DNA of 64,000 nucleotides from Halomarina ordinaria (GTDB lineage: Archaea; Halobacteriota; Halobacteria; Halobacteriales; Haloarculaceae). The notes under the pieces are model-generated. The model did not search any database. It was not told where the DNA came from and worked only from the letters and a program-made list of their open reading frames with translations. Where the stretch lies: positions 620,001-684,000 of the forward strand of contig NZ_JARRAH010000001.1 in NCBI RefSeq assembly GCF_030553305.1, in the 5' to 3' direction. The translations under genes were made by a program, and so were the position numbers. This document shows, piece by piece, positions 39,068-44,267 of this stretch (within the stretch, counting starts at the first letter, position 1; every line of letters starts with the position of its first letter).

Positions 39068-39137
39068 GCCGGCGACGCCGAATCCGACCGAGGACCGTTC
39101 GCTGTTCGTCCCAGTCGCCACTCGGACAGAACGTCGG

Positions 39138-39153
39138 TCGCTCCCTGATTCGA
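39138..39153 (+). repeat. 16-bp direct repeat, copy 1 (T-arm-like)
   Basis: 'tcgctccctgattcga' occurs here and at 39311-39326. Each copy contains a GATTCGA core like a tRNA T-arm, suggesting decayed tRNA-end fragments. Confidence 0.45.
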
Positions 39154-39275
39154 GTCATTCCCCTCTTCACGGCTCGCTATCGTTCGCCGGAGGGCGGGCG
39201 TGACGGGAGTGAGCGAACGCGAAGCGTTCGCGAACGTCGCCACGCGCGCGAGCCGAGCGAAGCGAGGCGAGCGGC

Positions 39276-39294
39276 CGTGGCGGGATTCGAACCC
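39276..39294 (-). repeat. partial copy of the tRNA-Arg 3' end
   Basis: 'cgtggcgggattcgaaccc', 19 bp identical to 39377-39395 inside the tRNA gene, 101 bp away. It covers the T-arm and part of the acceptor stem, the piece typically duplicated by site-specific integration into tRNA genes. Companion 16-bp repeats flank it. Region 39068-39372 otherwise holds no gene. Confidence 0.5.
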
Positions 39295-39372
39295 CGGTCG
39301 CTCACTGCGTTCGCTCCCTGATTCGAATCCCTAGTGCCGTGGCTCTCGCTCACGTCCGTTCGCGAGAAGCCA

Positions 39373-39445
39373 CGGGCGTGGCGGGATTCGAACCCGCGAT
39401 CGAGAGGTTAGGAACCTCTCGCCCTGTCCACTAGGCCACACGCCC
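39373..39445 (-). tRNA. tRNA-Arg (CCT anticodon)
   Basis: A 73-nt cloverleaf on the minus strand. Acceptor GGGCGTG pairs with CACGCCC; T8-G9 follows. The anticodon stem AGAGG/CCTCT encloses the 7-nt loop TTCCTAA, giving anticodon CCT (decodes AGG). The T-arm contains GGTTCGAATCC. CCA is not encoded. No intron. tatA begins downstream on the same strand after about 30 bp of A/C-rich sequence. Confidence 0.93.
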
Positions 39446-44027: not shown

Positions 44028-44045
44028 GTCCGCCCTCGTGGAACT

Positions 44046-44096
44046 CTCGCTCGTCGCGTCCGCTCCTCGCAGGATGCACCGACCGGGATTCGAACC
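44046..44096 (-). repeat. 51-bp direct repeat, distal copy of the tRNA-Gly 3' end
   Basis: Perfect 51-bp copy of 44168-44218. It contains the T-arm and acceptor 3' strand of tRNA-Gly plus about 30 bp of its downstream flank, 122 bp away. Such tRNA-end duplications are the hallmark of attL/attR pairs left by integrative elements. Confidence 0.7.
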
Positions 44097-44167
44097 GGTG
44101 CGAGGCGGTCCCGGCCACTTCGCTCCCGCGCTGCGACTCGCAGGGTTACGAATCACCTCGTAGAGCG

Positions 44168-44218
44168 CTCGCTCGTCGCGTCCGCTCCTCGCAGGATGCA
44201 CCGACCGGGATTCGAACC
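44168..44218 (-). repeat. 51-bp direct repeat, proximal copy overlapping tRNA-Gly
   Basis: Second copy of the 51-bp repeat (see 44046-44096), overlapping the 3' part of tRNA-Gly. The 71 bp between the copies have no gene. Confidence 0.7.
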
Positions 44219-44267
44219 CGGGCTATGGGCTTGGAAGGCCCATGTCCTACCACTAGACTATCGGTGC
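44197..44267 (-). tRNA. tRNA-Gly (TCC anticodon)
   Basis: A 71-nt cloverleaf on the minus strand. Acceptor GCACCGA pairs with TCGGTGC, discriminator A. The anticodon arm TGGGC/GCCCA surrounds CTTCCAA, anticodon TCC (decodes GGA). The T-arm contains GGTTCGAATCC. CCA is not encoded. Its 3' part is duplicated 122 bp downstream. Confidence 0.93.

Follow-up and report, generated by a model that had tools for sequence, protein, structure and literature searches.

The 51-bp duplication beside tRNA-Gly(TCC) in the window, the 64,000-nucleotide stretch of Halomarina ordinaria DNA analysed here, is read, with slightly better than even confidence, as one unit of gene-less, integron-like cassette arrays that sit on the tRNA genes of the Halobacteriales and would be recombined at the T-loop. 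The repeat structure in the window, the covarying hairpins of a family found in most relatives, and the turnover of units at orthologous tRNA genes are presented below, together with the other explanations considered.

The duplicated tRNA ends in the window

Positions 44046-44096 and 44168-44218 are identical at 51 of 51 bases, which at a spacing of 122 bp far exceeds chance; the repeat extends, at the same spacing, to 68 nt with 93% identity (44034-44101 and 44156-44223). The platform gene, tRNA-Gly(TCC), was located by ARAGORN on the minus strand at 44197-44267 (Rfam RF00005, 74.8 bits), so the repeat includes the final 22 nt of the tRNA (44197-44218) in addition to 29 nt of its 3' flank. 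The initial annotation had described a real duplication of a tRNA 3' end, beginning in the T-arm and reminiscent of an attachment site, with no integrase between the copies. These observations hold: the copy runs from G53 to the last base of the tRNA, and the 71-bp gap is free of genes.

Read along the minus strand, the tRNA ends with the duplicated core R (44197-44218; tRNA positions about 53-73, the last 22 nt), the boundaries of which derive from a comparison of 68 units. Directly 3' of it lie a first hairpin, hA, of the TGCGAGGAGCGGACGCGACGAGCG type (44157-44196), and an L-type hairpin unit, hB (44085-44156), which scores 74.6 bits against the covariance model R1. These are followed by R', a copy of the tRNA-Gly 3' end identical at 22 of 22 positions (44075-44096), and by a distal copy of hA (44046-44074) that matches 44168-44196 at 29 of 29 positions. 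The left arm of hB (44144-44156) is an inverted T-arm with one extra T here, and its right arm is the start of R'. This hB is partly decayed, with folding z-scores of -1.4 to -2.5 against shuffled sequences.

A second platform gene in the window, tRNA-Arg(CCT) (39373-39445, minus strand, ARAGORN), has a similar organization on the same strand. An hA hairpin of the sequence CTCGCGAACGGACGTGAGCGAG (39332-39372) precedes an hB of the short (S) type, GGGATTCGAATCAGGGAGCGA..GCGACCGGGGTTCGAATCCC (39282-39331; R1 27 bits, RNA z -5.3), and a copy R' of the tRNA-Arg 3' end with one mismatch (39272-39293). The start of an additional truncated S-type hairpin lies at 39129-39156. In many units, as at 39254-39266, the terminal part of a hairpin is often CGAGCGNAGCGAG or CGAACGNAGTGAG, both containing the very stable mini-hairpin motif GCGAAGC. 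At 39196-39239 there is a likely remnant of a third kind of segment, hC, whose tail resembles tRNA-Arg (..CGTTCGCTCACTCCCGTCACGCCC on the minus strand).

Presence of the tRNA-Gly duplication in all relatives, a possibility raised by the initial annotation, is not what we found: among seven tRNA-Gly(TCC) loci of the genus, including the present one, four carry a unit (one of them degenerate), one carries half a unit, one a trace and one nothing. The proposed loss of a normal integrated element is also unsupported, as the DNA between the copies is the element itself, a conserved two-hairpin unit detected behind many tRNAs in 52 of 59 genomes; no integrase, virus or phage bearing the hairpin was detected in the loci and collections searched. 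Overall, an attachment-site-like copy of the tRNA 3' end is retained from that annotation, and the lone scar of a lost island is not.

Architecture and distribution of the units

Each unit consists, in order 3' of the tRNA, of the hairpin hA of ~40 nt, the hairpin hB and R', the copy of tRNA positions about 53-73; an array therefore reads tRNA(...R)-hA-hB-R'-hA-hB-R' and onward, with hB flanked on each side by a T-loop copy, the two being opposite in orientation. The units carry no gene; the length of the first unit ranges over 66-199 nt. Across the 68 units the copied segment has sharp borders: its identity to the tRNA rises from 0.46 one base upstream of G53 to 0.97 at G53, stays at or above 0.9 as far as the last base of the tRNA, and falls from 0.91 there to 0.49 beyond it. 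In every L-type unit displayed, the right end of the hairpin copies the 3' end of the host tRNA, and the last 13 nt of the unit show at most three mismatches to the host in 122 of 147 units.

The L-type hB folds into an inverted T-arm copy, a small unpaired spacer, a 5-bp stem, an internal loop (TCGCAG / ACCGT), a variable terminal part and the returning strand; the S-type exemplified at 39282-39331 is shorter. Its conserved centre, TCGCAG...GACCGTC, lies inside a strongly covarying stem, where three variable positions form Watson-Crick pairs in 274 of 321 cases, compared to 159 with shuffled partners (maximum 182). A canonical hB (L104) folds with z-scores of -3.7 and -5.1 as DNA and of -4.7 and -4.6 as RNA relative to shuffles. 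An imperfect hairpin under structural constraint, the property sought in an attC-like site, is thus present by covariation and by the folding of L104. Rfam covariance models detected nothing but tRNA above the gathering score and contain no family for hB.

The left arm of hB is an inverted T-arm copy of whichever host tRNA precedes it. Because the search for this arm took whichever stretch best fitted its own copy, matches to that copy are favoured, and a shuffle at T-loop position 57 provides the fairer test: this position pairs in 167 of 184 units, compared to 91 with shuffled copies (maximum 112). Left-arm mismatches, counted on the tRNA strand with tRNA cluster loci and copies of more than four mismatches excluded, comprise 100 G.U against 15 A.C (57 against 14 distinct pairs), and the folding of the tRNA strand, as RNA or as single-stranded DNA, therefore seems conserved. 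The central stem has no such bias, with 19 G.T and 18 A.C when misaligned rows are counted too.

Within the own genome, an R copy (at most five mismatches, at most 900 nt from the tRNA) lies downstream of 15 of the 43 tRNAs outside the tRNA cluster and upstream of none of the 43, and the two opposite-strand controls for these 43 tRNAs gave 2 and 1 copies. The separately found tRNA-Pro(CGG) also has a unit. A further stretch of this genome (G000:C1:2546-2550 kb, loci L310 and L328) has ~16 tRNA genes packed densely into ~4 kb and may be a viral-type tRNA array. A 101-bp query around the copy matched 33 of 59 haloarchaeal genomes, with Arg, Ser, Thr, Leu, Glu, Met, Gly and Pro tRNAs as hosts. 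The model R1, built from an alignment of 31 hairpins, has matches at E 0.01 in 52 of these 59 relatives, with up to 32 per genome. In a phylum sample of 196 genomes it matched 31, all 31 from the own order Halobacteriales, to which at least two of the non-matching genomes also belong.

The linkage to tRNA genes is tight. Among 82 R1 matches in named genomes (from 94, at E of at most 0.00025; many of the 12 weaker matches dropped were the opposite strand of the palindrome), 74 lie at most 672 nt downstream of the end of a tRNA on their own strand. The other eight comprise seven hits, at four loci, located at truncated or N-masked tRNAs and one hit with 92 nt between it and the locus edge. Likewise, 60 regions chosen purely by score gave an upstream tRNA for 74 of 79 hits. 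First units begin about 29-81 nt behind the tRNA, and later units follow at regular steps.

In addition, a third, double-hairpin segment, hC, interrupts several R' copies exactly in the T-loop, with the layout GTTCRANT-hC-TCCC followed by the acceptor of the host. It comprises 50-60 nt, TCCGANNGACG..CGTCNNTCG plus a hairpin ..GCTCAC, and is inserted without target duplication; the stem NN is complementary in all seven distinct full cases. The hC-bearing loci are L220, L213, L355, L400, L402, L378 and L173.

Turnover of the arrays and competing explanations

A survey of tRNA-Val(TAC) in 39 Halorubrum genomes yielded 32 parsed loci, of which 2 have no unit, 20 have one, 7 have two and 3 have three. 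At these loci 14 of 20 possible combinations of hA and hB types occur, counting within-locus repeats once and omitting one unit of ambiguous type. The association is non-random (mutual information 0.346 vs 0.188, p 0.016); hA and hB are thus not freely assorted, and descent accounts for part of the pattern. Orthologous sites differ in their units by precise R-to-R blocks. For instance, at the tRNA-Val(TAC) of genome G255, segments 2-209 and 559-700 of a Halorubrum sodomense query, which lie before the tRNA end and beyond the last R', abut with a 24-bp overlap that corresponds to a single R, revealing an empty site beside the same downstream sequence; such a site could equally result if a unit were lost through ordinary recombination of one R copy with another. 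Tandem units with identical R copies are frequent. Two observations concern individual tRNA-Val loci: in L426 (genome G276) the first unit has grown to 357 nt via an AT-richer insertion within hA, and in L332 (H. distributum) the first unit contains AGATGTGTATAAGAGACAG beside N, which resembles a sequencing-library transposon end and is presumably an assembly artefact of the public contig.

Cores are shared among different tRNAs as well. In genome G005, of the same genus, an identical 43-nt S core lies behind tRNA-Arg(TCT) and tRNA-Leu(TAA), and one of 95% identity behind tRNA-Asp(GTC), with flanking arms that differ and are tRNA-like. The Arg and Asp copies have a common acceptor part that is unlike either host and like tRNA-Arg(CCG). 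The arrays are also polar: copies carry on average 0.49 mismatches in the tRNA-proximal unit compared to 0.90 in later units (p 0.011), and the proximal copies are better preserved within 16 arrays too (p 0.045).

These features are best read as gene-less palindromic cassettes that recombination at the T-loop would add, remove and shuffle, in the manner of integron attC arrays. All junctions point to the T-loop (TTCRANT), where they would lie and which would serve as the recombination core site; its 7 nt between the T-stem strands resemble the core site of a tyrosine recombinase. Two kinds of segments between T-loops, the acceptor strand plus hA and the hB core, would be exchanged separately, and new units would enter beside the tRNA, which would remain intact since a 3' end that does not match would not be viable in that position. 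In the parallel with integrons, the T-loop of the tRNA would correspond to attI and the folded hB to an attC-like site, driven probably by a candidate haloarchaeal tyrosine recombinase acting in trans. Because the 3' end of the tRNA is exchanged in classical att integration, this process alone could not carry one element to different tRNAs; an exchange of hB cores between T-loop sites of existing arrays, or an insertion that duplicates R, could reach them. The mobility of the units is inferred, as are the enzyme involved, the form in which units would move and the direction of each change. More tentatively, and less probably than not, every tRNA gene might be a possible platform, with the T-loop as the site of strand exchange, on which a resident tyrosine recombinase would insert, delete and shuffle hA, hB and hC, with hB folded as single-stranded DNA into an attC-like site and its arms rewritten to the host.

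Genes of the PF00589 family are present, none of them tied to arrays; no recombinase linked to arrays and no excised form of a unit was found. Near the integrase genes of the own genome there are no L-type units, and the weak R1 matches there include S-type units at tRNAs. A search of 20 stretches of this genome that contain an integrase or a tRNA revealed no kilobase-sized island bounded by hA and hB. Three sequence patterns retrieved 1, 13 and 7 contigs from IMG/VR, and R1 gave four matches on these 21 contigs, none convincing (best 18.4 bits, E 0.048). The phage collection contained no match to the hairpin, and the plasmid collection one, on an 828-kb Natronorubrum replicon, likewise behind tRNA-Gly.

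Attachment-site scars (attL and attR) left by the deletion of an integrated island, the reading of the initial annotation, are the least probable of the explanations considered. Integration is usual at tRNA 3' ends, islands of Haloferax gibbonsii terminate in partial tRNA copies according to the accessible text of PMC7921747, and a direct repeat of the tRNA 3' end is indeed present at both borders. However, no integrase or mobile gene lies between the repeats (71 bp here, 66-199 nt in first units), and what separates them is not random remains: behind many tRNAs it is a conserved, structured unit whose size is similar from one to the next. The genuine island of the own genome (L304, G000:C1:412001-432000) has 5,557 bp with an integrase gene between two complete tRNA-Glu(TTC) copies, and this one island lacks both these borders and the hB hairpin; an old, degenerate hairpin unit lies behind its distal tRNA-Glu copy, indicating that the island arrived on top of this unit. 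The common tandem units with identical R copies also speak against scars. A lone scar is rejected on the census of the own genome together with the family, and random decay of an island on the conserved hairpins and the unit size. A very unlikely alternative is that tRNA flanks underwent ordinary tandem duplication and unequal crossing-over, with quasipalindrome correction keeping the hairpins perfect and no dedicated mobility. Some arrays do have identical or near-identical units (L183; L414 and L416), and the right arm could template the left. Yet similarity is 0.639 within arrays vs 0.671 between genomes, so that array mates are no more alike than units across genomes, which argues against simple tandem duplication, and a single conserved core across families and tRNAs requires transfer between loci.

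Ranked second to T-loop-centred cassette exchange, and unlikely in our estimate, is insertion by a transposase or a Cas1-like integrase, with hA-hB as a miniature insertion element at tRNA 3' ends and R as its 22-bp target duplication. It would explain the exact 22-nt duplication, the array logic of tRNA-R-unit-R-unit with better preserved copies near the tRNA, and the occurrence of one core behind different, unbroken tRNAs. It leaves unexplained why the left arm is inverted and follows the tRNA, why hA and hB reassort separately, and why hC enters the T-loop without duplication; moreover, casposon targets, as given in the accessible part of PMC4046053, overlap just 4-7 nt of the tRNA, compared to the 22-nt copy here. 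Unlikely, too, is an RNA-level explanation, which may hold alongside another: hA-hB would be a structured tRNA trailer, whose left arm sequesters the second 3'-end copy from mispairing with the pre-tRNA. The constant strand and short distance (30-80 nt) of the units behind the tRNA, the 100:15 ratio of G.U to A.C in the left arm, and the better folding of the S unit in the window as sense RNA (z -5.3 vs -2.4) are in its favour. By itself, however, it neither creates copies nor spreads cores among tRNAs, the units are patchy among species, the departures in the central stem are about equal, and folded DNA of the tRNA strand tolerates G.T wobble as well. Two other candidates were considered: back-copied 3' fragments of mature tRNA are rejected, since the displayed copies have no CCA following them, and terminal repeats of the casposon type were not apparent in a comparison by eye.

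Relation to known systems

The family of hairpin units behind haloarchaeal tRNAs is widespread and apparently undescribed, as searches of an open-access library yielded no description of the hairpins, the target-following arms or the arrays. If cassette exchange at the T-loop is correct, these units would add to the known recombination arrays a class that spans a whole archaeal order, with tRNA genes as platforms and hairpin arms matched to the host tRNA, and would offer a test bed for the movement of structured DNA in archaea. They would also account for the many "partial tRNAs" beside haloarchaeal tRNA genes and caution against calling each of these a lost prophage. If the hairpins act as RNA instead, they would constitute an undescribed class of tRNA trailer structures.

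Archaeal islands that end in partial tRNAs are well known, as the accessible texts of PMC8371274 and PMC3119063 describe. Like the islands of tyrosine recombinases in these texts and in that of PMC7921747, the units have a direct copy of the tRNA 3' end and a fixed orientation to the tRNA; they differ in being ~100 bp long with a conserved hairpin and no integrase or genes, and in forming tandem arrays at many tRNAs per genome. Haloferax gibbonsii LR2-5 has 11 partial tRNAs, several of them adjoining a full copy (PMC7921747), which are most likely the same kind of copies as R'; the main text of that report, in its accessible part, describes no hairpin, unit or array.

The units may resemble casposons and the repeat duplication of CRISPR, as far as the accessible text of PMC4046053 covers these, in entering at tRNA 3' ends, in duplicating the target there and in the growth of arrays at one end. 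The present units, in contrast, copy 22 nt of tRNA instead of 4-7 nt, have an inverted arm and no Cas1 or other gene content, and are too short for genes. Short, gene-less, palindrome-bearing repeats of haloarchaea also include the PATEs of Haloquadratum and other small mobile repeats; the available portion of PMC3119063 does not describe PATEs as tRNA-bound, and they make no copies of tRNA ends.

The closest parallels concern the integron attC site. According to the accessible part of PMC2727003, attC sites are imperfect hairpins of ~50-140 nt whose ends are conserved and whose terminal part varies, and close to the ends they have extra bases and an unpaired spacer; the same features are seen here. 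Similar to integrons, the units form tandem arrays on one platform site, with apparent addition beside the platform. Unlike integrons, they have no gene cassettes between the sites, as judged by unit lengths, and T-arm sequences take the place of the R-box consensus at their ends; their platform is a tRNA gene, and their arms copy the tRNA that hosts them.
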